From positions 1 through 54,605 of IMG/VR virus record IMGVR_UViG_3300036770_004582: 54,605 bases of DNA, one strand, 5' to 3'. Source of the stretch: a virus. Below the pieces are notes generated by a model. It saw nothing but the letters and a program-made list of their open reading frames with translations. It was not told the DNA's origin and ran no database searches. The position numbers were made by a program, and so were the translations under genes. This document shows positions 12,784 to 48,103 of this stretch, one piece after another; the first letter of the stretch is position 1, and each line of letters opens with the position of its first letter.

Positions 12784-14403
12784 ATGGATAACACCACTGG
12801 TACCTCGGACTCCTACAGCCCGTTTCTTGCTGAGTTACTCGACATTGAGACCAACTCGGGCATAACACTCTCGGAGATCGGCCGTCGGGTGTACGGCTCA
12901 AACCAGGAGTACCTCGCCAAGAAGCGTGCCGTGGACGAAGCGCGGGAGGCAATGCAGAACGCGCTGGCCGAACGCAAGGGTGGATTCCGGCTCGACCCCA
13001 AGATGCTAGCGTTGGCCCAGGGGTTCCTTGCCCCTACCCAGACCGGGTCTTTTGGTGAAAGCCTCAGCAAGGCCGCAGGTCTGTACTCCGAGGCACAGGT
13101 ACGGGATGACGCCCGGCTGCGAGAGTTGGCGCGGATGCGGTACGAACTGGCCCAATCAGGACTGGCCGAGGAGAAAGAGCTGGCAGGGCTAGGGTTGAAG
13201 GTGGCCTCGAAGATCACGCCGCAGATGACCGCGATCCAAAAGCAGATACTCTCGGAGGGTCTTAACCCCCGCTCACCCGAGGGACAAACGCGGGCCAAGG
13301 AGCTTTACGCGTTGTCGCAGGCCACGCCTGACATGAAAGAGTTCGCGGCACGTTCGGGCCTCGCACTTACCGCCCCTAATTTCGCCGATGCGTTCAAGCA
13401 ATCCCGTAGCCTCGAAGCCCTTCGACCCATCGCCACCCGACTCGGACTGGACCTCTCGGATCCCGCGCAGCTGGAGCGTGCACGAGGTGAAATGCAGCGC
13501 GAGACGCTTCGGACGCAAAAACCGGACGTGGCCAAGATGCTCGACAAGTTCGGTGGTGATATTCTTAATCCGCAGGACGTGCGGCGCGCCGAGCAGATGC
13601 TTACACGGGAACGGTCGCTCGAAGTAGAGGGCAAAGAGGTAAATATCGAATCGGCGAAGAATCAGATCTTACGGACCCAACAGGAGATCTTGGAGAACAC
13701 GCGTTCGGGGAACTACGGTGTGGTGCCGGAGCGCGCAGCGGAGCTGGGTGTGCCGATCGACCCGCTGACCAAGTATAAAGGGCTGTCGGTGAAAGAGGCC
13801 GCGAAGCAGCGGTCCGAGGACATTGATGAGGCCGAGAAGTTTATCAACGACAAAATTATTCCGGGACTGCAGAACGCAGACGTAGACATTAACAACCTGA
13901 CGCGGGCACTGGCCTTAAATCAGCAGATCCGGACCGGCATGACGCTCGGGTTGCCTTTCGGGGTGGGTACTGCGGTCAAGACCCTTTCGGGTGATAAAAA
14001 GCTCATCGACGAGTTCGAATCCCTCGCCGCACTCGCGGCCAAAGCGAACCGGATGCCGGGCGACTCGAACGTGTCGAATGCCGACCTGAAGTTCATGCAG
14101 CTCGGTACCTTCTCGGTGGACAAGCAGCCGGAGACAAACGAGACCATCATCTCCTTCATGCTCGAACAGCGCAAGCGTGATAAAGACTTCGCGCAGTTTA
14201 TGACCGATTACGCCGCAGTCAACGGCACGCTCGGTCCCAATGCGCAGTCCGCGTGGCGTGGTTACTTGGATGCAAACCCCATTATGATAACCGACGAGAA
14301 GACTGGGGTGGTGCGGCTGAATCCGAACCGAATGTCGCACCGCGAGTTCTTCAACGCCCCTCGGGTGCGGGTGGGTAAAGACGGCAAGGAGGCCGGACGA
14401 TGA
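12784..14403 (+). CDS. Large helical internal virion protein
   Basis: The 539-residue product is charged and almost wholly helical, rich in Arg, Glu, Ala and Leu (YLAKKRAVDEAREAMQNALA; ARLRELARMRYELAQSGLAE; ESAKNQILRTQQEILENTRS). The C-terminal half has a conserved-looking domain (KSAWRGYLDANP-like: QSAWRGYLDANPIMITDEKT; SHREFFNAPR). It overlaps the next gene by 4 bases (ATGA). Gene order and composition resemble the internal core proteins of T7-like and SU10-like phages, though no direct family match is claimed. Confidence 0.6.
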   Translation: MDNTTGTSDSYSPFLAELLDIETNSGITLSEIGRRVYGSNQEYLAKKRAVDEAREAMQNALAERKGGFRLDPKMLALAQGFLAPTQTGSFGESLSKAAGLYSEAQVRDDARLRELARMRYELAQSGLAEEKELAGLGLKVASKITPQMTAIQKQILSEGLNPRSPEGQTRAKELYALSQATPDMKEFAARSGLALTAPNFADAFKQSRSLEALRPIATRLGLDLSDPAQLERARGEMQRETLRTQKPDVAKMLDKFGGDILNPQDVRRAEQMLTRERSLEVEGKEVNIESAKNQILRTQQEILENTRSGNYGVVPERAAELGVPIDPLTKYKGLSVKEAAKQRSEDIDEAEKFINDKIIPGLQNADVDINNLTRALALNQQIRTGMTLGLPFGVGTAVKTLSGDKKLIDEFESLAALAAKANRMPGDSNVSNADLKFMQLGTFSVDKQPETNETIISFMLEQRKRDKDFAQFMTDYAAVNGTLGPNAQSAWRGYLDANPIMITDEKTGVVRLNPNRMSHREFFNAPRVRVGKDGKEAGR

Positions 14404-16451
14404 CAAGCCGAGTAATCGACGGGGTAATCTACGAGTTCGAGCCGGGTACCAGCGAGGCGACGATCCAGCGATTTGTAACCCGCAAGCAAGCCGAAGCCGC
14501 GCCGGCCGAATCCCCACCTCCCGCTGCCGCCCCCGCTCCCACCACTGCACGCGCCCCTGCACCAGCCGCACCTAAAGCACCGGCGGGGCCACCAATAGAA
14601 CCTTTTGCCCCTGGGTACCTGGGTCAAATGGCACAGGGCGCGACCTTCGGGTTCTCGGACGAGGCAATTGCCGCCGCCCGTGCCGCAATGGGGGAACGCA
14701 GCTACCCGGAGTATGTTGCTGCAGAACGCGAGGGGTTACGGAAGTTCCGTGAGGAGTCGCCCGTGTCCTCGACTGCAGCCGAACTTACCGGAACCGTGGC
14801 TCCCGCGCTGCTCACCGGCGGATACTCGCTACTACCACAAGCCGCGAAAGCTAGTACAGGGGCGTTGTCGCGATTGCCAAAGCTACTCTCGGGCGACAAG
14901 CCCACCATCGGGCGCACCACGGCCTTGGGTGCTGGTGCCGGCGGGGTGTCGGCTGTGGGTACCTCCGAGAAACCGCTCACCGAACAGTGGGAAGAGTTCT
15001 TAAAAGGTGCCGCTCTTGGCGGTGGTTCCACCCTTGGGCTTGGAGTGGTTACCAAGTACGCGGTCTCTCCCGCCTTCCAAGCGATCAAGAAGTCGCTCGG
15101 GTTTGGTGAGGAGAACCGGATGGCGGATCTGGCGATCGCGCAGGCGCTGGCGAAGGATGGGCTGTCACCGGAGCAGGCGGACGTAATGCTGCAAAAGATT
15201 AACCGGAACGAGTTGACGTTGGCCGACGTTGGGGAGAACACCCGGGCGCTGCTGCGTCGCGCCACGGCCGCACCGGGGATGGCCCGGATGGAGGCCAAGG
15301 GCGAACTCGCCGCGCGGGAAGCCGGACGGGTGGATCGGGTAAGTGACGACCTGCGCCAACTGATGTCGGGAAGCAAGGACTTTCACACGGACGTGCAGGA
15401 CCTGATTAAACAACGCCGCACTGACGCCGACGCGCTTTACGAAGCGGCCTATTCTAATCCGCCCACGTTCACTCCCGCCAATGCCCCACAGCTGATGCGG
15501 CTGCGTGAATATCCCGCATTCAAGACTGCAATGAAGAAGGCCGAGAAGGATTTGGCTAACCGTGGCATGGACCCGAAGGATCCGCAGTACGCGCTCCGAG
15601 GTCTGCACCATACAAAACTCGCACTGGACGACATGATTGGTGAGGCCATGCGCGCCGGGAAGAACAACGAGGCGGCGACCCTGATCGAGATGAAACGGAA
15701 GCTGCTGGAGGACCTGGAGAAAGCGTCACCCGCGTACAAGACCGCGCGGCTGGCCTACGCCGGGGACTCCGAGATGCTTACCGCGATGGAAGAAGGACGA
15801 AACGTCTACAAGATGTCCGAACCCGAACTGCGCAAATTCGTGAACCGGTTCAAGGACAACCCGTCCGAGATGGACTCTTTCCGAGCAGGAATCGCCCAAG
15901 GGATGCTGGAGAAGATCCGTGTGGCCGGTCCGGTGGCTGACCCCTTCAAGACGCTGCTGTCGCGTGACGCCGAAGCCAAGCTGCGCCGGGCGTTCCGGGA
16001 CGATGCGGCGTTCGACGAGTTCAAGAAGCGGTTGCTCACCGAACAGCGGATGCTGGAGACCGAAAAGACCGGATTCCGCCGTACACCAGCAGACACCGAC
16101 CTCGAACCTACCGCAGGTGGTGTTGGTGCCGCCCGGGCGTTCCTCTCCGGTGCTCCCGTAACCGGGATGATTGAGACCGCCCGGACCGCCTTTCCCACCA
16201 TAACCGGGATGCCGGCGCGGATCGCGCAGCCCACCACCGAACGACTCCTCACCCCGACCTCGCAGGTCTCGGACGTCATCGAAGGGATCATGTCGAGTTT
16301 GAAGTCCGAGGAGCAGAATTTGATGCGCCAGTCGGGCCTCGCTGGTGCCGGTGGAGTAATGGTAGGGCAGCAGGCCGGCGAACGTGACATTAAGCCCCAG
16401 AATATCCCGGGTCAGCCCGCACCACCGAGACCACCGTTGGCCCCTCGCTAA
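14400..16451 (+). CDS. Internal virion protein with Pro/Ala linker, 683 aa
   Basis: The N-terminus (VIDGVIYEFEPGTSEATIQR) matches a short domain common at the start of large phage and virion-associated proteins ('YEFPDGTSEATIQRF'). A 45-residue Ala/Pro linker follows (about 37-66). Then come Gly/Ala-rich hydrophobic stretches (TELTGTVAPALLTGGYSLL-like, about 125-200; GAALGGGSTLGLGVVTKYAV) and a long charged helical body to about 560. It ends the late operon: a perfect hairpin and a terminator follow directly. An ejected, membrane-interacting protein is the best guess. Confidence 0.65.
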   Translation: MTSRVIDGVIYEFEPGTSEATIQRFVTRKQAEAAPAESPPPAAAPAPTTARAPAPAAPKAPAGPPIEPFAPGYLGQMAQGATFGFSDEAIAAARAAMGERSYPEYVAAEREGLRKFREESPVSSTAAELTGTVAPALLTGGYSLLPQAAKASTGALSRLPKLLSGDKPTIGRTTALGAGAGGVSAVGTSEKPLTEQWEEFLKGAALGGGSTLGLGVVTKYAVSPAFQAIKKSLGFGEENRMADLAIAQALAKDGLSPEQADVMLQKINRNELTLADVGENTRALLRRATAAPGMARMEAKGELAAREAGRVDRVSDDLRQLMSGSKDFHTDVQDLIKQRRTDADALYEAAYSNPPTFTPANAPQLMRLREYPAFKTAMKKAEKDLANRGMDPKDPQYALRGLHHTKLALDDMIGEAMRAGKNNEAATLIEMKRKLLEDLEKASPAYKTARLAYAGDSEMLTAMEEGRNVYKMSEPELRKFVNRFKDNPSEMDSFRAGIAQGMLEKIRVAGPVADPFKTLLSRDAEAKLRRAFRDDAAFDEFKKRLLTEQRMLETEKTGFRRTPADTDLEPTAGGVGAARAFLSGAPVTGMIETARTAFPTITGMPARIAQPTTERLLTPTSQVSDVIEGIMSSLKSEEQNLMRQSGLAGAGGVMVGQQAGERDIKPQNIPGQPAPPRPPLAPR

Positions 16452-23388: not shown

Positions 23389-23658
23389 ATGTACGATAAT
23401 ACCAACACCGGTATGATGATGCGCAACGAGAACCGCGAACACGACAAGCAGCCGGAGTTCAAGGGGTCGTTGAATGTAGACGGTCGGGACTTTTGGATCT
23501 CGGCTTGGGTGAACACCGGGAAGGAAGGCTCCAAGATCGAGGGCAAGAAGTACTTCTCGATCAAGCTTACCGCGAAGGATGCACCAAAGGACACCAAGCC
23601 AGCGGCCAAGGCTCGCGTCGGGTTCGAGCGCGATCTTGACGACGAAATCCCCTTCTAG
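23389..23658 (+). CDS. Small SSB-like protein with DDEIPF tail
   Basis: The 89-residue protein begins with a polar disordered stretch. A short beta-rich core follows (EFKGSLNVDGRDFWISAWV, YFSIKLTAKDAP), like the DUF736/small OB-fold proteins. It ends in an acidic tip, DLDDEIPF, which matches the C-terminal protein-interaction tail of bacterial and phage single-strand-binding proteins. Directly upstream of the polymerase, it may coat template DNA or recruit the replisome. Confidence 0.65.
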   Translation: MYDNTNTGMMMRNENREHDKQPEFKGSLNVDGRDFWISAWVNTGKEGSKIEGKKYFSIKLTAKDAPKDTKPAAKARVGFERDLDDEIPF

Positions 23659-23659
23659 T

Positions 23660-25492
23660 ATGTTCCCACGGGTAGATTCCCCGGTCACTGCCGTGATCGA
23701 CTGCGAGACCACCGGGCTGCGGTGGTGGAAGGACCGCGTGTTCGGCGTGGCACTGTTGCTGCCCGGCGCAGACCCCTACTACTGGGACCTGCGGCAGACG
23801 CCCGGGGCGGTAGATTTCCTGCGGGATCTCGCCGGGTCGCCACACGTGGTGCGGTGGGTGAATCATAATTTGAAGTTCGACTATCACTTCCTGCGCGAAG
23901 CGGGCGTGGTGCTCCCGGTCGAGCGGCTACACTGCACGATGGTGCGGGCCGCGCTGATCAACGAGAATGAACCGGTTTACGAGCTGGACTTCTTGGCGCG
24001 CAAGTACGCGAACCAACGGAAAGAATCGGAGATTTACACGCAGCTGGCCGAGATCTTCGGGGGGCGGGCGACGCGCAACGCGCAGATGCCAAATCTGTCA
24101 AAGGCGCCGGCGCAGATCGTGGCACCCTATGCCAAGCAGGACGTGGTGGCGGCGCACGAATTGTACCTGTGGCAGGAGGGCGAGATCGAAAAGCAGGGCC
24201 TGCACCGGGTGTACGAACTTGAGTGCCGGCTAATGCCGGTCATCATCGATATGGAAGAGCAGGGCGTGCGGGTGGACGTGGACCGGGCCGAAGGGGCCGT
24301 TCGTGACCTTACCACGCGGATCGAGCGGATGCAGCGGGAGCTGAATGCGCAGGCGGGATTCGAAGTGAACCCGAACCCCTCGGGGTCGATCGCGCAGCTG
24401 TTCGAACCGAAGCTCGGCGAGGACAACGAGTGGTACCTGATCGACGGGACGCGTGCCGAGAAGACCGAAGGAGGGAAGGCCTCGATCAACGCCGATTGCC
24501 TGCGGCGGATGCGGCACCCGGCGGCAAAAATGATCCTGGATCTGCGCAAGATGCTCAAGACCCGTGATACTTTTCTTTCCGGTCACATCCTTGGGCACCA
24601 CGAGGACGGTGTAATTCATTGCAATTACAACCAGACCAAGAACGACTCGGAGGCCGGGACCGGCACCGGGCGGCTCTCGGTTACAAACCCGGCGCTGCAG
24701 CAGATCCCGTCGCGCGACAAGGACATCAAGGCGCTGATCCGCCCGATTTTTTTGCCCGACCATGGCGCCCGCTGGTTAGGACTTGATTGGTCGCAGTTCG
24801 AGTTCCGGGTGGCGAACCACTATGGCAACGTGCCCGCGATCTTGCGGGCGTACGCGGACAACCCGAATCTGGACTTCCACCAGTTGGTCTCCGATATGAC
24901 CGGGATCCCGAGGAATGCGGAGTACGCCGGTGGTCCTTCCTCTAAGGCCATAAATCTTGGGCTTGCATTCAACATGGGGTCGGGAAAGCTGGCGCAAGAG
25001 TGTGGGCTTCCCTTTACCGAGGAGTCGGGGCCGAACGGGAACGTCTACCTGCGTGCCGGACCCGAGGCGATGGAGCTGTTCGAGCGTTACCACGCTGCGA
25101 ACCCCGGGATGCGGAACATGGCACAAAAAGCGTCAAGTATCGCCAAGGAGCGCGGATTCGTGCATTCGGTGATGGGCCGGCACCTGCGATTCCCGGGCGG
25201 GCAGTTCGTGCACAAAGCTTCGGGGCTAATTTACCAAGCCACCTCGGCCGACTGCATGAAGCAGAAGCTGATCGAGTTGCACGAATACCTGCAGCACCAC
25301 GCCTGCGGGCGGTTGCTGTTGACCATTCACGACGAGGTGGGAATCTCGCTCGATAATGATTCGCCGGAGCACGCCGATGAGGTGGCCCGGATCTATACGA
25401 CTTTTGATGGTATAAAATGCCCAATTGCACTTCGTGTACCAATTACGTGCGAATGGGGTCTGGGTGAAAATTGGTACGAAGCGAAAGGATAA
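23660..25492 (+). CDS. dpoZ: Family A DNA polymerase with 3'-5' exonuclease (DpoZ-like)
   Basis: The 610-residue protein starts at the ATG right after the SSB-like gene. The exonuclease domain shows IDCETTG (Asp14, Glu16), NHNLKFDYHFL (about 68-78) and YAKQDVVAAHELY (about 156-168). The polymerase domain shows motif A LGLDWSQFEFRV (about 372-383), motif B KAINLGLAFNMG (about 429-440) and motif C LTIHDEVGISL (about 553-563). There is no 5'-3' exonuclease domain. The gene abuts purZ, mazZ and datZ, the arrangement described for DpoZ of aminoadenine phages, so it is presumed to copy Z-DNA. Base preference cannot be read from the sequence. No clear ribosome binding site precedes the start, so coupling is likely. 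Confidence 0.9.
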   Translation: MFPRVDSPVTAVIDCETTGLRWWKDRVFGVALLLPGADPYYWDLRQTPGAVDFLRDLAGSPHVVRWVNHNLKFDYHFLREAGVVLPVERLHCTMVRAALINENEPVYELDFLARKYANQRKESEIYTQLAEIFGGRATRNAQMPNLSKAPAQIVAPYAKQDVVAAHELYLWQEGEIEKQGLHRVYELECRLMPVIIDMEEQGVRVDVDRAEGAVRDLTTRIERMQRELNAQAGFEVNPNPSGSIAQLFEPKLGEDNEWYLIDGTRAEKTEGGKASINADCLRRMRHPAAKMILDLRKMLKTRDTFLSGHILGHHEDGVIHCNYNQTKNDSEAGTGTGRLSVTNPALQQIPSRDKDIKALIRPIFLPDHGARWLGLDWSQFEFRVANHYGNVPAILRAYADNPNLDFHQLVSDMTGIPRNAEYAGGPSSKAINLGLAFNMGSGKLAQECGLPFTEESGPNGNVYLRAGPEAMELFERYHAANPGMRNMAQKASSIAKERGFVHSVMGRHLRFPGGQFVHKASGLIYQATSADCMKQKLIELHEYLQHHACGRLLLTIHDEVGISLDNDSPEHADEVARIYTTFDGIKCPIALRVPITCEWGLGENWYEAKG

Positions 25493-25494
25493 GC

Positions 25495-26613
25495 ATGGAA
25501 CATATAGATGTAGTGTTGGACTTGCAGTACGGGAGCACCGGCAAAGGGCTGCTCGTCGGGTGGTTGGCCCAACGCCGCAGGTACGACACGGTCGTGACGA
25601 CTTGGGCACCGAACGCGGGCCACACATTGATCGACGACACCGGGCGCAAGTTCGTACACACGCAGCTGGCGCTCGGCATCGTTTCGCCGTTGTGCAAGCG
25701 CGTGTTGCTTGGGCCGGGGTCGGTGATTGACCCCGTGAAGCTGCTCGATGAAATTGCCAGCTGTGCGGACCTGATCACCGCGAACAACATCCGAATCGCG
25801 ATTCACCCACATGCGGCAGTGGTGCAGGACGGACACCGCGAGGAGGAGGGCGCTAACCCCGGACAAATCGGCTCCACTCGCAAGGGCGTGGGTGCGGCGT
25901 TGATCGACCGGATTCGACGGCGGCTCAACGGTAATGTCGCCATAAACGATGACCGACTCGTTGACTACGTGGTCTCACCCGAACAGTACCGGGAGTTGCT
26001 GCGGCAGTCGTGCTCGGTGTTGGTCGAGGGCGCGCAAGGGTATTCACTTTCGATGTACCATGGCTTCTACCCGTTTACTACCTCGCGGGATGTGAGTACG
26101 TGGCAGATTCTCGCGGATTCGGGTATTCCGTTCAATGAATGCAAGCGGGCAACGTTCGAAGTGTACGGGACCGCGCGGACCTTCCCGATTCGGGTGGCGC
26201 ACCGGTTCGACGATGCGGGGCGGCAGACCGAGAACAGCGGGCCGTTCTACACGGACCAGCACGAGATCTCGTTCGAATCGATTGGACAGCAGCAGGAGCT
26301 GACCACCGTGACGCAGTTGCCGCGCCGGCTGTTTACCTTTTCGGCCAAGCAGATTCAAGAGGCCATCCAGTACAACGGTGCACGCAAGGTGTTCTTGAAC
26401 TTCTGCAACTACGTGCAGCACTTGGGTACCCTGTTGGACATCGTGGATGCGATCGAGAAAGGCGGCGAAGCTCGGGTAGCAGTGATCGGGTTCGGGCCTA
26501 CCACTCGGGATCTGGTCGACATTGACAACTTCTCGGAATTCGCGACCTTGAACGGCTCGCAACGCAGGGCTAAAATTCTTAACGCTTGGAAGGACTATCA
26601 TGCCAAAATATGA
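25495..26613 (+). CDS. purZ: PurZ: 2-aminodeoxyadenylosuccinate synthetase (PurA homologue)
   Basis: The 372-residue protein (start at 25495, behind AAAGGA) is an adenylosuccinate-synthetase homologue. P-loop QYGSTGKG (11-18) replaces WGDEGKG of PurA: Ser14 stands where the catalytic Asp13 of E. coli PurA is, a change reported as a hallmark of phage PurZ. NAGHT (40-44, catalytic His43), GSTRKGVGAAL (126-136, PurA GTTGRGIGPAY), and VEGAQGYSLSMYHGFYPF (177-194) with TTSRDVST are all present. PurZ condenses dGMP and aspartate, ATP-dependently, to the precursor that host PurB converts to dZMP. It is shorter than PurA (about 430). It overlaps mazZ by 14 bases. Confidence 0.92.
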   Translation: MEHIDVVLDLQYGSTGKGLLVGWLAQRRRYDTVVTTWAPNAGHTLIDDTGRKFVHTQLALGIVSPLCKRVLLGPGSVIDPVKLLDEIASCADLITANNIRIAIHPHAAVVQDGHREEEGANPGQIGSTRKGVGAALIDRIRRRLNGNVAINDDRLVDYVVSPEQYRELLRQSCSVLVEGAQGYSLSMYHGFYPFTTSRDVSTWQILADSGIPFNECKRATFEVYGTARTFPIRVAHRFDDAGRQTENSGPFYTDQHEISFESIGQQQELTTVTQLPRRLFTFSAKQIQEAIQYNGARKVFLNFCNYVQHLGTLLDIVDAIEKGGEARVAVIGFGPTTRDLVDIDNFSEFATLNGSQRRAKILNAWKDYHAKI

Positions 26614-27079
26614 ATCGGATTTTCACACCACCGACCGTGCACCGCTCCCTTGGAAGGCGCGCGATACCGAATTGCTCGACGCCAACGGCGCGATGATCGC
26701 TACCTTCGAGGTACGACACACGACCAAAGGCCTGCTTGCCGGCGCCTACAAGAACTGCCAGTGGGCGGCGGACGCGGCGAACCACTACGAACACGACGGG
26801 CTGTTGGCGATGCAAGAGCGCGTGGCGATGTGGGCCGACAAGCAGTTCCCAAACCGGACCACAGCCGATGTGCTTCTGAAGCTTTACGAGGAACTGGGTG
26901 AGTACGCTCGGAACCCGAAGGCGGAGCTGGAATTCGCCGACGTGATGGTGCTGCTGCTGGATGCGGCGCATATGAACGATATTAACATCGCGAAGGCAGT
27001 GGACGAAAAAATGACAATTAATGAGGAGCGAAAATGGCAAGTGGACCCCAACACCCGTATTATGAGGCACGTACCATGA
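26600..27079 (+). CDS. mazZ: MazZ: MazG-like (d)GTP pyrophosphohydrolase
   Basis: The 159-residue protein starts behind GGAAGGA. Residues about 88-145 form an all-alpha MazG/dUTPase-like core with the metal-binding pair KLYEELGEY (Glu97, Glu98, Glu101) and ELEFADVM (Glu111, Asp114). A conserved tail, KMTINEERKW, is typical of the phage MazG-like group. The N-terminal 80 residues are an extension (WADAANHYEHDG-like helix, about 54-70). In aminoadenine phages MazZ turns dGTP into dGMP, the PurZ substrate. The position between purZ and datZ makes that assignment strong. Confidence 0.88.
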   Translation: MPKYESDFHTTDRAPLPWKARDTELLDANGAMIATFEVRHTTKGLLAGAYKNCQWAADAANHYEHDGLLAMQERVAMWADKQFPNRTTADVLLKLYEELGEYARNPKAELEFADVMVLLLDAAHMNDINIAKAVDEKMTINEERKWQVDPNTRIMRHVP

Positions 27080-27342
27080 CCGAGGAGAAGATGATCGAAG
27101 TGGATCCTCGGCACGTGGAGTTCAATCAATGGTTCAACGTACTGTTTCCTGACCAGTCACCCGAGATGCGGTTCCGACTTGTCGCCTCCACCGTGGCCAC
27201 TTGGAACGCGGCACTCACCGTTGCTGCGACGAAGTTCCACATGATGGCACAGGAGGAGGGGTACGACAAACAGCTCACGCCGGACCAAGTGGCGGACTTG
27301 GTAGAACGAATGAAAGTGTCGGAATATGTTAACGTTAACTGA
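27034..27342 (+). CDS. Hypothetical protein between mazZ and datZ
   Basis: The ATG at 27034 has an excellent ribosome binding site (GAGGAGCG, 27022-27029) and gives 102 residues overlapping mazZ by 46 bases. An alternative start at 27076 (ATGA overlapping the mazZ stop) gives 88 residues. The protein is helical (HVEFNQWFNVLFPDQSPEMR, WNAALTVAATKFHMMAQEEG). It overlaps datZ by 17 bases. Not recognised; its place inside the pathway cassette suggests a helper or regulatory role, unproven. Confidence 0.65.
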   Translation: MASGPQHPYYEARTMTEEKMIEVDPRHVEFNQWFNVLFPDQSPEMRFRLVASTVATWNAALTVAATKFHMMAQEEGYDKQLTPDQVADLVERMKVSEYVNVN

Positions 27343-27886
27343 TCAATTACGGGCGGGCCACGTCAACCGGTGGCAAATCGTGCAGACGGCACGGCCGCAG
27401 ACGCTGGCCGAGCATTCGTTCCACGTCTGTGCGCTTGCCGGCGAACTCGCGCTGCTAGCGCAATGGCCGGGGCTGGATGATCCGCACCAGCGGTTAGAAC
27501 TGATCTTTTGGGCCATGTACCACGACTTGATCGAAGTCAAGACCGGGGATTTGGCCACGCCGTTCAAGGAATGCCTACGGCAGGCGGGTGGGGCCGAGAT
27601 CGTGCAAGAGGCCGAGCGGATTGCGGACGAGGAGTACTCGGAGATGCACGCCCGGGTGCGGGGCACCCCAATCGGGGCGATAGTGAAGATCGCCGACATG
27701 ATTGAGGCGGCGTACTTCCTGCAGGACAATGGCTTGGGGTCGCACGCGCAAGAGGTACTTGCGAACATCTACCGCTCGATCCGCGAACTTGCTAACGATT
27801 CGGTCGAGGACTTCCCCGATCTGCATTTGTACCACGCCGCGCAGCTGGTCTGCGAGCGCGTGATCCGTGAAAGGGTATTTCTATGA
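27326..27886 (+). CDS. datZ: DatZ: HD-domain dATP triphosphohydrolase
   Basis: The 186-residue HD-domain phosphohydrolase belongs to the YfbR-like group. Metal ligands are His30 in TLAEHSF, His66-Asp67 in AMYHDLIEV and Asp124 in VKIADMIEA. The N-terminus HVNRWQIV contains a Trp-x-Ile pair (Trp16, Ile18). From memory, this corresponds to the residues lining the adenine pocket in S-2L DatZ. The enzyme removes dATP (to deoxyadenosine and triphosphate), leaving dZTP as the only partner for T. It is coupled by 17-base overlap to the upstream gene. Confidence 0.9.
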   Translation: MLTLTDQLRAGHVNRWQIVQTARPQTLAEHSFHVCALAGELALLAQWPGLDDPHQRLELIFWAMYHDLIEVKTGDLATPFKECLRQAGGAEIVQEAERIADEEYSEMHARVRGTPIGAIVKIADMIEAAYFLQDNGLGSHAQEVLANIYRSIRELANDSVEDFPDLHLYHAAQLVCERVIRERVFL

Positions 27887-28095
27887 AGTGTCCAAAGTGT
27901 GAAGGGGTAACGCGTGTTACGACTACTTACCAGAATAAGGCGAACACTACTCGACGGCGTCGCGAGTGTACGGTATGCAATTACCGATTCACGACCCGGG
28001 AGAGTGCTGAAACGGCGTTGGAGACGTTGGAGGATGAGCGGCAGATGATGCTGGAACTGCGCGAGGAGAAGGACGATGCCGGCGACGCGATTTGA
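27883..28095 (+). CDS. NrdR-like zinc-ribbon protein lacking the ATP-cone
   Basis: The 70-residue protein starts with KCPKCEGVTRVTTTYQNKAN, then RRRRECTVCNYRFTTRES. This matches the N-terminal zinc ribbon of NrdR (CPxC...RRRRxCxxCxxRFTTxE), the repressor of ribonucleotide reductase genes. The ATP-cone that follows in NrdR (about 150 residues in all) is missing, replaced by an acidic helix (ETLEDERQMMLELREEKDD). It overlaps datZ by 4 bases. A decoy or modulator of host nucleotide-reductase control would make sense beside a dNTP-remodelling pathway, but this is inference. Confidence 0.75.
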   Translation: MKCPKCEGVTRVTTTYQNKANTTRRRRECTVCNYRFTTRESAETALETLEDERQMMLELREEKDDAGDAI

Positions 28096-28575: not shown

Positions 28576-28682
28576 AACGGCGCTGGATGCAGTGCAAGCG
28601 GTGCGCGTCCAAATGTCTGTGGAAGCCCGCCCGGCGTTACTGTACGAAATGCGAAAAGCTGTTTAAGGCCATCAGCCATTGA
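28572..28682 (+). CDS. Tiny zinc-finger-like protein, 36 aa
   Basis: The GTG start overlaps the previous stop (GTGA), the coupling pattern used all through this operon. The 36 residues include CKRCASKC and CTKC (Cys at 8, 11, 15, 24 and 27) with many Lys/Arg and aromatics, so a zinc-knuckle peptide able to contact nucleic acid is likely. It ends on the -35 of the next promoter. It is short, but the Cys pairs and coupling support it. Confidence 0.55.
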   Translation: MKRRWMQCKRCASKCLWKPARRYCTKCEKLFKAISH

Positions 28683-28708
28683 CTCGAGTATGCAACCCGT
28701 GTTATAAT
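28679..28708 (+). promoter_or_regulatory. Early promoter upstream of deacetylase gene (P4)
   Basis: TTGACT (28679-28684), an 18-bp spacer containing ACCCGTG, and extended -10 TGTTATAAT ending at 28708. The leader ends TTATAGAGGACACA, 11 bases before the ATG at 28747. Confidence 0.7.
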
Positions 28709-28746: not shown

Positions 28747-29595
28747 ATGACCCCGCTCTACTTCTCCCCTAAGCAACGCACGACCTACGACTTCGTGTCG
28801 TTGAGCAAGATCCCGCTTTTCGTCGAGCAGTCCGGACGCGAGCCGATCACCGACTTCGAGCCGTTCGAGGACCGACATTTCCACCGTGCGCACTCCCCGA
28901 ACTACGTGGCGGATGTCTTTAGCCTGCGCCGCGTCAACGGCTTCGGCAACCGCAACGCCACCGTGAACGAGTCGCTGCGGTACTCCAACGCCGGGTTCCT
29001 CGCGGCCGCGCTGGATGTGCTGGAGCACGGTGGCATTGCCTGCTCGGCCACGCAGGGGTTCCACCACGCGCACTACGACAACGGGTACGGGTACTGTACC
29101 TTCAACGGCCTGATGATCGCGGCGACGCAGGTGATGGAGCGCTGCGGCAAGGTGCTGATCCTGGACGGCGACGGCCACCTCGGGGACGGGACGGACGACA
29201 TCACCGACGTGCTGGGGCTGGAGCGGTACGTGGTGAACGTCACCCGGGGCCGGGGGTTCGCCTCGAACATGGAGCACTGGAATCAAAACATGTGGGACAA
29301 CTGGGTCTGGGGATTGATTCAGCGGCACAAGCCGGGTATAATATTCTATCAGGCCGGCGCAGATGCGTGGATCGAGGATCCCTACAACGCCGGGTACCTA
29401 TCACTCGAAGGGTTAGCATGCAGAGACCGGGCGATATTCAAGGTGGCGCTGGAGGAGAAGATCCCGGTGGTGTGGAATCTCGCCGGCGGCTACTCGACGC
29501 CCATGCAGCAGGTGGTGGACATCCATCTGCAGACCCTACGAATCTCGGACGAGGTGTTGAATGAGCAAAAGCAAAGTAGCGCTCTCCCTGTTTGA
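28747..29595 (+). CDS. Histone-deacetylase-like amidohydrolase
   Basis: The 282-residue protein has the arginase/deacetylase fold signatures of the HDAC, AcuC and acetylpolyamine amidohydrolase superfamily. They are GFHHAHYDNGYGYCTFNGL (His106-His107 dyad), ILDGDGHLGDGT (zinc ligands Asp142, His144), QAGADAWIEDP (third ligand Asp206) and LAGGYS (Tyr249, transition-state Tyr). All catalytic positions are kept. It is shorter than most family members (about 300-380). Substrate unknown: acetyl-lysine on host proteins, acetylpolyamines, or another acyl amide. Its 3' end overlaps the next gene by 35 bases, and both sit behind P4. Confidence 0.85.
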   Translation: MTPLYFSPKQRTTYDFVSLSKIPLFVEQSGREPITDFEPFEDRHFHRAHSPNYVADVFSLRRVNGFGNRNATVNESLRYSNAGFLAAALDVLEHGGIACSATQGFHHAHYDNGYGYCTFNGLMIAATQVMERCGKVLILDGDGHLGDGTDDITDVLGLERYVVNVTRGRGFASNMEHWNQNMWDNWVWGLIQRHKPGIIFYQAGADAWIEDPYNAGYLSLEGLACRDRAIFKVALEEKIPVVWNLAGGYSTPMQQVVDIHLQTLRISDEVLNEQKQSSALPV

Positions 29596-31006
29596 TCTTC
29601 TGCGCGGGATCGGCAAGACCGAGGAGAAGCTCGTGGAGAAGATTCCCGAGGCGGCTAAGGTACCGGTAGCTAAACGCCGGTTGACCGAGGGGATGCTGCC
29701 GCAGGAGATCGTCGATTTTTACAATCGTGAGGGGATGCTTGGGCGCTACCGCACCGGGGCGCCCGCCGTGGCGGATATTGTAAGTCGCTCGCGCGTCCCG
29801 GGTACGCAGTACGGGATGAAGACCGCGCCGGTGGAGACGTCCAGCTTGCCTAAAAACGCCGAGATCCGATTTATGACGCCCGAGGAGTTGGCCAAGCCCG
29901 TGGAACGGCGGACTCCTACCGGTAAGTTTTCGATCGAGCAGGACGAACAGCTAGAGGGAGCGCTTAATATGTACCCCTCAATCGAGTACCTGCTTAAACA
30001 GGCAGAGAAGTCGCCGACGATAGCACAGCGAACACTCGGACGAGGGCCGGTGACTCGGCACCTGACCACGACGCAGGCACCACCCGATATCGGAGCACAG
30101 GGATATCAGCTGGCATACGACATGACCCGAGGGCAAGGGGACGTGAACGTGGCCGACATCCTGACTTCGCGCAACGTCCTGCGCCGCCCGCTGAACGCGG
30201 CGAACTACGGGATCGCCCGGGGCGATTTTCGCAACGTGATGCCAATGTCGGACAAAGGTATCGGGGTGTCGAGCGAGCAGATCGGGCAGAGGGTTTTAGG
30301 CGGTCGGGGACTGGACACTTCGGACCTGCAGCTGGAGTACTTGACTCAACTGCTCGGCGACCGGGATTTGGCCTCGCAGGCGATGAATTTCGACGCGCTC
30401 CAACTGGCCAAAACCGGCGTTGGCGACCCTTCGGTTGCGACCGGGTACTTGGGGCTTACCAACGCTATGCGCTCGGCGTTGCTGGGACCCGACGCCTACG
30501 CGGCGCTGAAGAACACCGTGCATCCGGGCGACCTGAGTATGCTGCGCAAGATCATCTCGGCCGAGGACCTGCGAGAACTTGATAAGGCCTCGAACGTCAA
30601 AGGCGCTTTCGGTCCCGGTGCACTGGGCCGGGCGCGGACGGTGGAGGCGGCGGTCGAGGGGCTGAAGCAGCAGATGACGCCGGACGAGATCGTGGAGGAG
30701 ATCACAAAGGGTGTTGACCCCTCAGGCTTTTTTGGACGATACAAGCATGGAGGCGGGGTACGCAAGTACAAAGCCGGTGGACTTTCCGCCATCCGGCCAC
30801 CAACACCCACGCCGGTCGAGGCACCCACGCCGGACCCGCTGGTCGAGATGATCATGCGGCAGCTCGGGGTGCCGGCCGGGGGGTCGCCCTCACCGGAACA
30901 GCTCGAGCAGTTCAACGAGATGTACAATCGAATGCTTGAGCAGCGCCGACTGCGAGAGGAGACGTACGACTACCCGTTCCGGGAGCACGACGCAGCATTA
31001 GGGTAG
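29561..31006 (+). CDS. Virion-like protein encoded in the early arm, 481 aa
   Basis: The 481-residue protein is helical with Pro-rich linkers (IRPPTPTPVEAPTPDP, about 408-423). A GGG/AGG basic motif (YKHGGGVRKYKAGG) resembles motifs in the phage's virion proteins at 47291 and at the end of 6602-11671. A large middle domain includes LGLTNAMRSALLGPDAYAAL. It follows the deacetylase gene with overlap. A protein packaged with the DNA, or a host-takeover factor, could explain its early position. No family recognised. Confidence 0.6.
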   Translation: MSKSKVALSLFDLLRGIGKTEEKLVEKIPEAAKVPVAKRRLTEGMLPQEIVDFYNREGMLGRYRTGAPAVADIVSRSRVPGTQYGMKTAPVETSSLPKNAEIRFMTPEELAKPVERRTPTGKFSIEQDEQLEGALNMYPSIEYLLKQAEKSPTIAQRTLGRGPVTRHLTTTQAPPDIGAQGYQLAYDMTRGQGDVNVADILTSRNVLRRPLNAANYGIARGDFRNVMPMSDKGIGVSSEQIGQRVLGGRGLDTSDLQLEYLTQLLGDRDLASQAMNFDALQLAKTGVGDPSVATGYLGLTNAMRSALLGPDAYAALKNTVHPGDLSMLRKIISAEDLRELDKASNVKGAFGPGALGRARTVEAAVEGLKQQMTPDEIVEEITKGVDPSGFFGRYKHGGGVRKYKAGGLSAIRPPTPTPVEAPTPDPLVEMIMRQLGVPAGGSPSPEQLEQFNEMYNRMLEQRRLREETYDYPFREHDAALG

Positions 31007-31020
31007 TGTGTGGTAGTTCG

Positions 31021-31103
31021 CCCGGCTCGTGGGTATAGAGCCGGGTATAGAGATGGGTATAGAGGTATATTTTAACGTTTCGAGTATAGAAAGGGGTATA
31101 GAG
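31021..31103 (+). repeat. Leader with hairpin and GGGTATAGAG tandem repeats
   Basis: CCCGGCTC (31021-31028) pairs perfectly with GAGCCGGG (31038-31045). Overlapping it, GGGTATAGAG occurs at 31031, 31043 and 31055 with an exact 12-base period and again at 31094, just before the ATG at 31104. The unit contains TATAGAGG, as in the leaders of the early promoters. It may be a terminator-like hairpin plus repeated ribosome-binding or regulator sites. Confidence 0.6.
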
Positions 31104-31478
31104 ATGGGTACAGATATAGGTACGATACTTGCCGAGCGCGGGGCGCGCTACGGAGACTTTGCGGAGCAAGCAAAGATCGCGCAACGGCTCAAGACCGTGC
31201 TGCGGTCAGCGGAACGCGATGTGGCGGAACTCGTGGCGATGCAGGACTACCAGCGCGAGGCGATCGAGATGATTTGTCATAAACTCGCCCGCATCGTCAA
31301 CGGCGACCCGTACTACGCGGACTCCTGGACCGATATCGCCGGGTATGCAAAGCTTGTGGCCGACCAGCTGCAGCGAGTGGACGAGGACCAGGTGGAGGCC
31401 TCGGCGCGCGAGTACCGGACGGTCATGGAGCAGGAAGACGCATTCCGCAACACGAAACCCATTCAACGATTCGATTAA
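31104..31478 (+). CDS. DUF6378-like early protein
   Basis: I chose the ATG at 31104 because AAGGGG lies 7 bases upstream; in-frame starts from 31029 fall in the tandem repeat. The 124-residue product has the pattern RGARYGDFAEQAKIAQRLK ... YQREAIEMICHKLARIVNGD ... DSWTDIAGYAKLVADQL. This fits the small phage family called DUF6378 (nucleotide-pool or MazG-adjacent, function unknown). All-helical. It is followed closely by the lipoprotein gene. Confidence 0.7.
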   Translation: MGTDIGTILAERGARYGDFAEQAKIAQRLKTVLRSAERDVAELVAMQDYQREAIEMICHKLARIVNGDPYYADSWTDIAGYAKLVADQLQRVDEDQVEASAREYRTVMEQEDAFRNTKPIQRFD

Positions 31479-31769: not shown

Positions 31770-31799
31770 TTGACAGAATTGTACGACCCGTGCTATAAT
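31770..31799 (+). promoter_or_regulatory. Early promoter (P5)
   Basis: TTGACA, an 18-bp spacer with GACCCGTG, and TATAAT at 31794-31799. The leader GGGGTTCTTTTTAAC...CGATAGAGGACA precedes the ATG at 31836. Confidence 0.85.
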
Positions 31800-37725: not shown

Positions 37726-39097
37726 GTCCGAGCACTGGGACCAGTTCGTCGCCGACCTCTCGGGTCCCGAGGTCGTGGAGCTTTACTACGATTGGCCAAC
37801 GTGGGCACGCCCGAACCAGACGATCCCGGAGGAGGACTGGTGGGTCACGTGGCTCATCCTCGCCGGCCGTGGGTGGGGCAAGACCCGCTGCGGTGCCGAG
37901 TTCGTCCGCTACCACGTCGAGAACAAGCTGGCCGGCCGCATCGCGCTGATCGCCGAGGACGCAGGCGACGCCCGGGACGTGATGGTCGAGGGTGAGTCGG
38001 GGATCTTGGCGATCTCGCACCCAAAATGCAAGCCGACGTTCGTACCATCGAAACGCCGCTTGGAGTGGCCCAACGGTGCGATTGCCACCATCTACTCGGA
38101 CAATGACCCCGAGACGCTGCGAGGCCCGCAGCACGACCTTTTTTGGTGTGATGAGTTGGCCAAGTTCCGCAACCCCGAGGAGATGTGGTCGAACCTGATG
38201 TTCGGACTGCGCCTCGGTGTGCACCCACGCGGTGTGGTCACCACCACGCCCAAGCCCATTCCCATCGTGCGTCGGCTGATGGAGGACGAGCGCACGTACA
38301 TGACGACCGGCACGACGCACGAAAATTTCGTGAATCTCGCACCTTCCTTTCGCGACGAAATTATCGCGCAGTACGAGGGCACCCGAATCGGACGCCAGGA
38401 GCTGTACGCCGAGGTGATTGACCCCGAGGACTACGGCATCATCAAACGCGACTGGTTCCGGCTGTGGCCCGCCGAGCGCGAATTCCCCGAGTTCGTGTAC
38501 GTGCTGCAGTCCTACGACTGCGCCTACACGGAAAAGACGATCAACGACCCGACCGCCTGCTCGGTCTGGGGCATCTTCCGACCGGACGACGACTCGCCCT
38601 TTTGTGCCATGTTGCTCGACTGCTGGGAGGATTTCCTGGCTTACCCCGATCTTCGCCCCAAAATCATCGACGAGTACCAGTCGATCTACGGCGAGCCGGG
38701 CAAAAAGGTCGACATGGTGCTGGTCGAGGACAAGGCCGCAGGCATCTCGATCATCCAAGACCTGCAGCGCGCAGGCATCCCGTGCCGCGCCTACAACCCG
38801 GGCCGAGCGGACAAGGTCCAGCGGCTGCACCTCGTGGCCAACATCATCGCCCGAGGCCGCGTCTACATTCCCGAGTCCACCGTGCACCCGGGGCAGCCAC
38901 GCGATTGGGCGGATCTGCTGGTCTCGCAGGTCTGCTCCTTCCCTGAGTCGCAGCGCGACGACCTGACCGACACGACCTCGCAGGCGCTGCGGCTGTTGCG
39001 CGACCTGACTTTCCTTTCCATTGACCCCGCGCCCGTCGAGGACGAGTACTACGACGAGGACGAGCAACGCACGAAGGTGAACCCTTATGCAGTATGA
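37664..39097 (+). CDS. terL: Terminase large subunit (ATPase/nuclease)
   Basis: The start is uncertain: GTG at 37664 has GAGGGA just upstream, while TTG at 37652 has none. The product is about 477 residues. The ATPase domain shows Walker A LAGRGWGKTRCG, Walker B DLFWCDELAK, and coupling motif GVVTTTPKP. The RNase H-like nuclease shows LQSYDCAYTE, then VEDKAAGISIIQDLQ and a C-terminal DLTDTTSQAL. It moves DNA into the prohead and cuts concatemers. It overlaps the small subunit by about 60 bases and the next gene by 11. Confidence 0.92.
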   Translation: MINLPVGSTRNQRRKNRLTPESEHWDQFVADLSGPEVVELYYDWPTWARPNQTIPEEDWWVTWLILAGRGWGKTRCGAEFVRYHVENKLAGRIALIAEDAGDARDVMVEGESGILAISHPKCKPTFVPSKRRLEWPNGAIATIYSDNDPETLRGPQHDLFWCDELAKFRNPEEMWSNLMFGLRLGVHPRGVVTTTPKPIPIVRRLMEDERTYMTTGTTHENFVNLAPSFRDEIIAQYEGTRIGRQELYAEVIDPEDYGIIKRDWFRLWPAEREFPEFVYVLQSYDCAYTEKTINDPTACSVWGIFRPDDDSPFCAMLLDCWEDFLAYPDLRPKIIDEYQSIYGEPGKKVDMVLVEDKAAGISIIQDLQRAGIPCRAYNPGRADKVQRLHLVANIIARGRVYIPESTVHPGQPRDWADLLVSQVCSFPESQRDDLTDTTSQALRLLRDLTFLSIDPAPVEDEYYDEDEQRTKVNPYAV

Positions 39098-39806
39098 TCC
39101 CCTTGAACTCGCATTGCTTTACGAGCAAAATGGCTACTCGAAAGGCGGCAAGGTCGTCGATTTTCTGGTCGAGGTGCTCAAAGGCGGCAGCAAGCCGACC
39201 GATACGAAACGCCGCGCCGCGATGGGGCTGCCCAAGGACCTGACACCCAAGCCCGGTGAGGTCGTGGTCAAGGAGGAGGTTAAGACCGCGCCGAAGAAGG
39301 GCGAAACGTCGGTCTCCATGACCGAGGCTATGAACATCCCGATGTCGCGTCGTGACGTATTGCGTGCCGGTGCAGGGCAGGCAGCAAACGCCATGGCACC
39401 GCGCGGTGCGTTGGGTTCGCTCATGCAGATGGCCAGCTCGCCCATGAATCTTGCGCGCAGCATCGCACCACCCGCCGGTTCTTCCACACTGCAAGGTCTG
39501 ATCGCTCAGGCACTCGCTCGTGGGATGAGCGAGGAGGATTTGGTAAAGCTCGCCGCCGGTGTCCGTCCGGATCTACAGGATTTCGAGGTGTTGTACCTGT
39601 CGGACCTGATGCGTGCACCTACCGATTTTATGCATGAGTTCGCGGATCAAGCCGGACCGTTGGCCAATATGCGCTCGATGCTCAACGTGCCGGAAGGCAC
39701 GGGTATTAAATCGGCACTACGTGAAATTCGGGGTGCCGATCCTAAAATGTACGAAGGATTAAAACAGGCCGCGCGAGACATCAGCGACCTTTCAATGGAA
39801 CCTTAA
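39087..39806 (+). CDS. Virion/assembly-region protein with twin-Arg-like motif
   Basis: The 239-residue protein has KGGKVVDFLVEVLKGGSK near the N-terminus. An internal SRRDVLRAGAGQAANAMAPR (about 87-106) resembles a twin-arginine motif followed by a weakly hydrophobic stretch, and a helical C-terminal domain follows. Similar proteins sit between terminase and portal in environmental phages in my memory. It is not at the N-terminus, so export by Tat is unlikely. Function unknown. Confidence 0.65.
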   Translation: MQYDPLELALLYEQNGYSKGGKVVDFLVEVLKGGSKPTDTKRRAAMGLPKDLTPKPGEVVVKEEVKTAPKKGETSVSMTEAMNIPMSRRDVLRAGAGQAANAMAPRGALGSLMQMASSPMNLARSIAPPAGSSTLQGLIAQALARGMSEEDLVKLAAGVRPDLQDFEVLYLSDLMRAPTDFMHEFADQAGPLANMRSMLNVPEGTGIKSALREIRGADPKMYEGLKQAARDISDLSMEP

Positions 39807-47290: not shown

Positions 47291-48103
47291 ATGCCCGGAT
47301 TCAAACCGATGGTAAAGATGATGACCACCGAACCCTCAGTCGAACTGAAGCTGAAGAAGGGTGGCTCTGCCTCCCATAAGCGGCTGATGAAAGAGGGTTC
47401 GGGCGATGGGTTCAAGCCAATGAAGAAGCAGACGGGTGGTGCTATAGACGCCATGGCCCGGGAACCTATGCCGACGACCCCTATGGGGAACCCGGCTGCA
47501 GCCCGTGCTATGGCTACTCGCCGTATGGCGAAGAAGCCCACTCCGATGCCTCGTGGCACCCCTTCGATAGGTCGTCCTAAGGCACCCCCGATGATGCCCC
47601 CAATGGCCGCCGCTCCCCGCCCCGCTGGCGCTGGAATGGCTACCCCGATGATGAAGAAGGGTGGGAGCACGGCGAAGAAGCTAGAGAAGCACGCTTCGAT
47701 GCCCGCCTCCAAGGCGCACAAGGGTCTCAAGACTGGTGGTATCGCGAAGTCTCCTAAGCCCGCGCAGTACAAGACCGGTGGTGTAGTCGATGGTCAGGGT
47801 GGTTACAAGGCAGGTGGTATCATCAAGACCACCGCCAAAAAGACCACCAAGATGAACACGGCGCACGTGGACCACAATTCCGCGCCTACCGGTGACGTAA
47901 AACTTGGAAATGCTGGCGGCTACAAAGTAGGTGGCTCTGCAAAAAAGCATTTCGCTACGGGGGGAGTTGTTGACTCTGGCCATCCCGTAGCTATGCCTCA
48001 GGGTCATAAGCCTCCGTCAACGCCGGTGTCGATTAATCGACTCTCGGGAACGTTCAAGACGGGCGGCGGTGTAAAGTCGAAGAGAGCCAAAAGCTCTTGT
48101 TAA
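47291..48103 (+). CDS. Lys/Gly/Met-rich low-complexity virion protein
   Basis: The 270-residue protein is very basic and low complexity. It contains repeated K(K/T)GG(V/I/S) units (at least nine, for example MKKGGSTAKK, LKTGGIAKSP, YKTGGVVDGQ, YKAGGIIKTT) and a Met/Pro-rich centre. This style is frequent in marine phage virion proteins. It probably binds packaged DNA or acts as a flexible internal component. A clear terminator follows. Confidence 0.65.
   Translation: MPGFKPMVKMMTTEPSVELKLKKGGSASHKRLMKEGSGDGFKPMKKQTGGAIDAMAREPMPTTPMGNPAAARAMATRRMAKKPTPMPRGTPSIGRPKAPPMMPPMAAAPRPAGAGMATPMMKKGGSTAKKLEKHASMPASKAHKGLKTGGIAKSPKPAQYKTGGVVDGQGGYKAGGIIKTTAKKTTKMNTAHVDHNSAPTGDVKLGNAGGYKVGGSAKKHFATGGVVDSGHPVAMPQGHKPPSTPVSINRLSGTFKTGGGVKSKRAKSSC

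Follow-up and report, generated by a model that had tools for sequence, protein, structure and literature searches.

Histone deacetylases (HDACs) of class IV, the HDAC11-like enzymes, comprise clades A and B. In clade B a glutamate (Glu94), which is implicated in placing peptide substrates, is combined with a Phe/Tyr gatekeeper, and the enzymes act on acyl-lysine peptides; in clade A the corresponding residues are Gly and Thr/Ser, and the enzymes tested yielded no peptide activity (PMC13325672). The structures of Vibrio cholerae HdaH (VcHdaH; 9GKY/9GKV; cluster 5b, Graf et al. 2024, PMC11532494) and of L. interrogans HDAC11 (liHDAC11) are class IV (PMC11532494, PMC13325672). Deacetylases and polyamine deacetylases carry the motifs RPPGHH and EGGY; the RPP is replaced in long-chain deacylases (PMC11532494).

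Viruses also encode deacylases of the HDAC superfamily. The giant-virus acetylspermidine amidohydrolases, for which polyamine substrates have been shown, differ from the enzyme considered here in being of the acetylpolyamine amidohydrolase (APAH) type, with RPPGHH and a dimer loop, and in having been found, in the study that describes them, in the Imitervirales only (PMC9992855). Acyl chemistry in phage takeover has precedent as well, since phages use GNATs on host polymerase (PMC7824862). A search of the literature on phage HDACs turned up nothing specific. Phages go unmentioned in the main text of a 2024 survey of bacterial classical deacylases and of a 2026 class IV study (word searches), and deacetylases in a 2026 paper about the nucleotide enzymes of Z-phages.

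The gene described here lies in a virus record from IMG/VR that is 54,605 bp long (the whole of this stretch is referred to as the window). Its product appears to be a class IV-like deacylase, and its constant neighbour is a second gene that overlaps its end (Table 1).

Table 1. Features of the window at and around the deacylase gene
Feature	Position	Strand	Basis
DpoZ, 2-aminoadenine DNA polymerase	23579..25492	+	NCBIfam phage_DpoZ_1, 1.7e-240
PurZ, 2-aminodeoxyadenylosuccinate synthetase	25495..26613	+	NCBIfam amino_Aden_PurZ, 316.7 bits (cut-off 300); PHROG 1211
MazZ-like dATP/dGTP pyrophosphohydrolase	26600..27079	+	Pfam PF04447, 5.4e-10
DatZ, dATP triphosphohydrolase	27326..27886	+	PHROG 7076, 6e-32
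Stand-alone NrdR-like zinc ribbon	27883..28095	+	Pfam Zn_ribbon_NrdR, 3.4e-9; synteny
Predicted sigma-70 promoter for the deacylase and partner genes: TTGACT and TATAAT spaced by 18 nt, -10 preceded by TG	28679..28708	+	near-consensus match
Putative class IV (HDAC11-like) zinc deacylase, 282 aa, ATG start	28747..29595	+	Pfam, PDB matches, AF2 model, conservation
Deacylase residues H106, H107, D140, D142, H144, D147, D206, Y249	ORF 28747-29595	+	alignments
Deacylase viral signatures N64-G65-F66, T102-Q103-G104-F105, C117-T-F-N-G121	ORF 28747-29595	+	alignments
Obligate partner, 481 aa; GNAT-like fold suggested for ~48-239, helical second domain, RYK.GGL motif towards C-terminus	29561..31006	+	co-occurrence; AF2

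The deacylase and its class

The deacylase ORF matches Pfam Hist_deacetyl (PF00850) at 7.4e-28 (98.2 bits, above the cut-off of 27.9 bits), and its AF2 model (pLDDT 85.6, pTM 0.88) and PDB matches point to the arginase-deacetylase fold. Between homologues dN/dS is ~0.06-0.23, implying purifying selection and a functional gene rather than a chance ORF. Residues H106, H107, D140, D142, H144, D206 and Y249 (and with them the D/H/D zinc ligands, the tandem His and the catalytic Tyr) do not vary among 11 aligned homologues or among the 54 sequences of the Z clade, 53 of which also keep Asp147. An earlier note on this DNA had claimed a catalytically intact HDAC-like enzyme with His106-His107, Asp142/His144/Asp206 and Tyr249; the residues are all at the positions that it named, and the protein can be regarded as an HDAC-superfamily member with an apparently intact catalytic site.

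The best PDB sequence matches are VcHdaH (9gkv, 1e-21) and C. reinhardtii HDAC11-1 (9rje, 3e-16), followed by class II enzymes at 8e-11. VcHdaH is also the best structural match of the AF2 model (Z 30.9, rmsd 2.5, 268 residues aligned, 27% structural identity), followed by liHDAC11 (Z 29.0), with all other structures at or below 25.7. These matches place the predicted enzyme nearest class IV (HDAC11-like), closer than to class I/II structures. VcHdaH and the phage protein are alike in their zinc and catalytic residues and in a foot-pocket motif that is free of RPP, but the phage has TQGFHH in place of SGGYHH, and a different L1 loop. The catalytic core is likewise common to the phage protein and to HDAC11 clades A and B (9RJE, 9GZ5/9RJD; PMC13325672), but the phage protein has neither full signature set and no HPFD-type L1, and in the pairwise alignment with 9rje Ser76 and Ser80 are aligned with the Arg-Glu foot-pocket pair of clade A.

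A tree of 65 rows puts the viral deacylases, with a few plasmid and bacterial rows, on one branch (support 97/87) that stands apart from the bacterial clade-A-type rows and the class I/II rows sampled. Among these rows, none of which is from clade B, the viral branch sits beside the bacterial rows of clade A type; of the latter, L102 matches 9rje at 5.5e-56. The viral deacylases appear to constitute a separate branch nearest the class IV enzymes, and the signatures of the window protein's own viral branch are NGFG, TQGFHH and GYCTFNG. The earlier note had named AcuC, APAHs and HDACs as enzymes for comparison. Its description of the enzyme as HDAC-like stands and can be made more precise as nearest class IV; the other two assignments were rejected. 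AcuC, or class I/II more generally, was rejected on the lack of RPPGHH and EGGY, on the lack of grouping with class I/II rows, and on a structure ranking topped by class IV entries; APAH (cluster 4) was rejected on TQGFHH in place of RPPGHH and on a short L2 with no extended dimer loop.

Rhodococcus phage E3 gp202, its megaphage homologues and the deacylases of a set of other phages (L086-L093) belong to the same broad viral branch, most of them with GFHH- and CTFNG-type motifs, but are only 22-42% identical and have tail tube, HNH and tail fibre genes as neighbours; the Z gene set and a homologue of the partner were not seen near those examined. (In L086-L093 the neighbours, named from sequence, are tail sheath, tail tube, HNH or DnaB-like genes.) The L086 contig also carries, at 14344-15453 on the minus strand, a PurA-type synthetase with GDEGKGK (Asp kept), which could be PurA or a PurZ0-like form.

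Two bacterial relatives may be mentioned separately. A betaproteobacterial MAG gene (L016), 52% identical to the window protein, is nested inside the Z-phage clade of the tree and is therefore probably phage-derived; its 7268 bp contig has transposase genes of the IS21 type, and phage genes could not be recognised on it. In a relative of the viral branch from a bacterial genome (L167, genome G214, match 1501-2235) the tandem catalytic His are replaced (SGFNRAGY), so the protein is probably a pseudoenzyme.

Z-gene context, promoter and distribution

Because DpoZ, PurZ, MazZ-like, DatZ and NrdR-like genes lie, in that order, upstream of the deacylase, the window very probably derives from a 2-aminoadenine (Z) phage. 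The location of the deacylase gene directly after the Z operon, as claimed from the sequence at the outset, is borne out, with DpoZ and PurZ above their NCBIfam cut-offs and MazZ and DatZ supported. In most relatives the NrdR-like gene directly precedes the deacylase; two small ORFs lie between them in the window.

The same note had given the deacylase gene its own promoter, and this too holds: an equivalent near-consensus promoter (matching at 10 to 12 of the 12 hexamer positions) is found upstream of the gene in 32/32 homologous loci compared. In the window the promoter is followed by the leader TATAGAGGAC; the window has 6 occurrences of the motif CCGTGNTATAAT, where 0.41 would be expected. 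The type of promoter and its place make early expression of the deacylase gene likely. The window has further sigma-70 promoters that are near-perfect and carry TG ahead of the -10 element, at 31770, 32138, 33304, 34232, 34879 and 35541; this array (31.7 to 35.6 kb) precedes small genes, mostly of unknown function, and has the look of an early region. The stretch 31031-31127, around the start of ORF 31029, contains short imperfect tandem repeats of 12 bases (GGGTATAGAGAC type) that resemble the TATAGAGGAC leader.

That such enzymes are rare in phages, as also claimed, is true of named phages, since a deacylase match was found in 6 of 50,697 named-phage records, but does not extend to IMG/VR, which holds at least 72 contigs of the deacylase-carrying Z clade plus other phages. 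The named PurZ/DpoZ phages examined, including phiVC8 and S-2L, are not among the six, and a nucleotide search with the window against named phages gave no match. A sister Z-phage lineage (L135-L147, L157, L161), with DpoZ 71-77% and PurZ 41-44% identical, is without the deacylase and its partner, and has a 31029-like gene directly after the NrdR-like gene. PurZ of this lineage was probably swapped or is evolving fast, coinciding with the missing gene pair.

A part in Z synthesis, as a tie implied by the earlier note, was rejected: the deacylase is absent from 13 of 54 testable DpoZ-anchored loci, from the sister lineage and from the named Z-phages examined, and the distant phage homologues sit in other neighbourhoods. 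The deacylase and its partner are, on this distribution, an add-on of one 2-aminoadenine phage clade, unneeded to make or use Z.

The overlapping partner gene

The partner ORF, which the earlier note had overlooked, overlaps the deacylase gene by 35 bp in the window and usually overlaps it in relatives. Every Z-clade deacylase locus with enough contig has a homologue of it downstream. Sampling was anchored on DpoZ to avoid bias, and among the 54 loci long enough to be tested 41 have both genes, 13 have neither, and none has one without the other. Reciprocally, a search starting from the partner recovered the deacylase in 55 of 59 newly fetched loci, and the remaining 4 are truncated, the contig edge falling within the partner gene or shortly ahead of it. 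On the DpoZ tree the presence of the pair is explained by two events: a gain or loss close to the base, and a loss in L159, which lies inside the deacylase clade and has lost both genes together. (Such co-absence is weaker than two independent events, because one deletion can remove adjacent overlapping genes.) Deacylase and partner appear to form a conserved adjacent two-gene unit; the pattern supports the unit and is no proof of joint function.

The partner evolves fast, its homologues being mostly 24-29% identical to the window protein. One locus (L068) has two tandem partner copies, at 8752-10074 and 10379-11647, behind one deacylase. Elsewhere in the window, KGG/KTGG-rich stretches in ORFs 39087-39806 and 47291-48103 recall the RYK.GGL motif of the partner. 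Membership of a known defence system was considered and rejected, PADLOC giving no match for the deacylase, the partner or the neighbours of L016.

Sequence comparison says little about the fold of the partner: there is no match in PHROG, PDB sequences or named phages, and Pfam LPD37 matches weakly (best 0.0074) in 5 of 40 members. A GNAT fold had been guessed from secondary structure and conserved sequence before the structure-search results were in hand. In VIA-align of the AF2 model (pLDDT 82.3), ranks 1-38 are all GNAT-fold entries (Hat1, Gna1, NatD, AAC, GCN5, NAT10 and others) with Z from 6.5 to 3.5, each below the level that counts alone (8); the first non-GNAT fold follows at Z 3.1. 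Foldseek of the same model gave no significant match (E at least 0.18, the hits not agreeing on a family), and the hhalign score of the partner profile against GNAT, 15.0, did not beat its controls (shuffles up to 14.4, reversed profile 15.4), the stretch aligned being the GNAT beta4-alpha3 motif. A GNAT-like fold of the partner is thus moderately supported by the model. The acyl-CoA motif Q/RxxGxG/A is mostly lost, only Gly178 being kept (40/40), with the Q/R and the second G/A gone. The invariant residues Y182, D187, T202, N205, R208, R209 and N212 suggest a functional site of another kind. The partner may share a fold with phage GNATs such as phiKMV Rac (described in PMC7824862), but sequence similarity to these was not detected.

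Function of the gene pair

The best explanation overall, to which we give a little better than an even chance, is that the zinc deacylase and its partner make up a two-gene acyl-modification module. The deacylase gene would be the first cistron of the unit, driven by its own strong host-type promoter, and the overlapping partner would be co-translated with it. Both proteins would most likely act on the same pathway: the partner would bind or modify an amine on some component of the host or the phage. There the deacylase, hydrolysing an acyl-amide by the usual Zn/His-His/Tyr mechanism, would strip an acyl group as a takeover or counter-defence step. That the pair is an acyl writer-eraser module (or an acyltransferase-like effector with a deacylase) acting on one substrate, and a new takeover or counter-defence unit long kept by one Z-phage clade, the relatives that lack it having the same Z chemistry, is a more speculative proposal that we hold to be doubtful.

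Some indication of the substrate comes from the rim and foot pocket, read by mapping the rules of PMC13325672 and PMC11532494 onto the alignment. The Z-clade deacylases have T/S-Q-G-F-H-H and LAGGY, so that RPP no longer precedes the tandem His and the XGGY motif lacks its Glu. The enzyme seems to mix the marks of the two class IV clades: Gly65, at the position of Glu94, is clade A-like and the Phe105 gatekeeper is clade B-like (not the Thr/Ser of clade A), each in 54/54 Z-clade sequences. Gln103 is equally constant in the Z clade (54/54); most other phages have Ser at this position, and bacteria of the clade A type have Gly. Gly121 corresponds to Asp in clade-A-type bacterial enzymes. Gly65 for Glu94, the polar Thr102/Gln103 and the Phe105 gatekeeper together tip the balance slightly from long-chain acyl-lysine in protein towards an amine that is small or not part of a peptide and bears a short or polar acyl group. 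On the other hand, Phe105 is a gatekeeper of the clade B (protein defatty-acylase) kind, and as such argues against a purely small-molecule substrate.

It is this gatekeeper, as in those class IV relatives of clade B that use acyl-lysine peptides (PMC13325672), together with the strong promoter of the gene, that makes a protein lysine deacylase for takeover possible, though not probable. Such an enzyme would strip acetyl or acyl marks from proteins of the host (RNA polymerase, nucleoid or metabolic ones), with the partner as no more than its targeting or regulatory subunit; but the residue implicated in positioning peptides in clade B is replaced by Gly65 throughout, and the nearest sequence matches are of the clade A type, whose tested members are without peptide activity (PMC13325672).

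A modification-antidote pair is unlikely. In such a pair an acyltransferase-like partner would be harmful or defensive, and what it does to phage components would be limited or reversed by the deacylase. The overlap of the genes, the fast evolution of the partner relative to the deacylase (24-29% against about 53-55% identity) and its tandem duplication behind one deacylase in L068 would fit, but no known defence-system model matches either protein, and the acyl-CoA motif is poorly kept. Improbable to a like degree is an acetylpolyamine deacetylase that frees spermidine from N-acetylspermidine for phage replication or packaging. In its favour, acetylspermidine amidohydrolases of the HDAC superfamily are encoded by giant viruses and spermidine acetyltransferases by phages (PMC9992855), and the partner could be a GNAT; against this stand the replacement of RPPGHH by TQGFHH, a short L2 that is without the polyamine-specificity loop that builds the APAH dimer, structural matches that clearly favour class IV, and the finding of APAH homologues in Imitervirales only (PMC9992855). 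Action on polyamines had been suggested at the outset, and is weakened by the first two of these. Least probable is a Z-related role, namely deacylation of a modified purine nucleotide or of 2-aminoadenine DNA (to undo a defence or Mom-like mark, for instance), which has in its favour the constant place of the gene behind DatZ and the NrdR-like gene within the clade and the precedent of GNAT-fold Mom enzymes that acylate adenine N6 in phage DNA (PMC7824862), but against it a sister lineage and named Z-phages examined that do without the deacylase, and related enzymes in phages with no Z genes nearby.

Returning to the two-gene acyl-modification module, its interest lies partly in the enzyme class: class IV is the least understood branch of the HDACs, and the substrates of clade A are unknown. 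A compact phage deacylase with a constant partner and a conserved promoter offers a small system in which to hunt for a substrate. Should the partner prove to be an enzyme of the GNAT fold, one phage transcript would encode two acyl enzymes of opposite action. These phages may control acyl groups on some component of the cell during infection.
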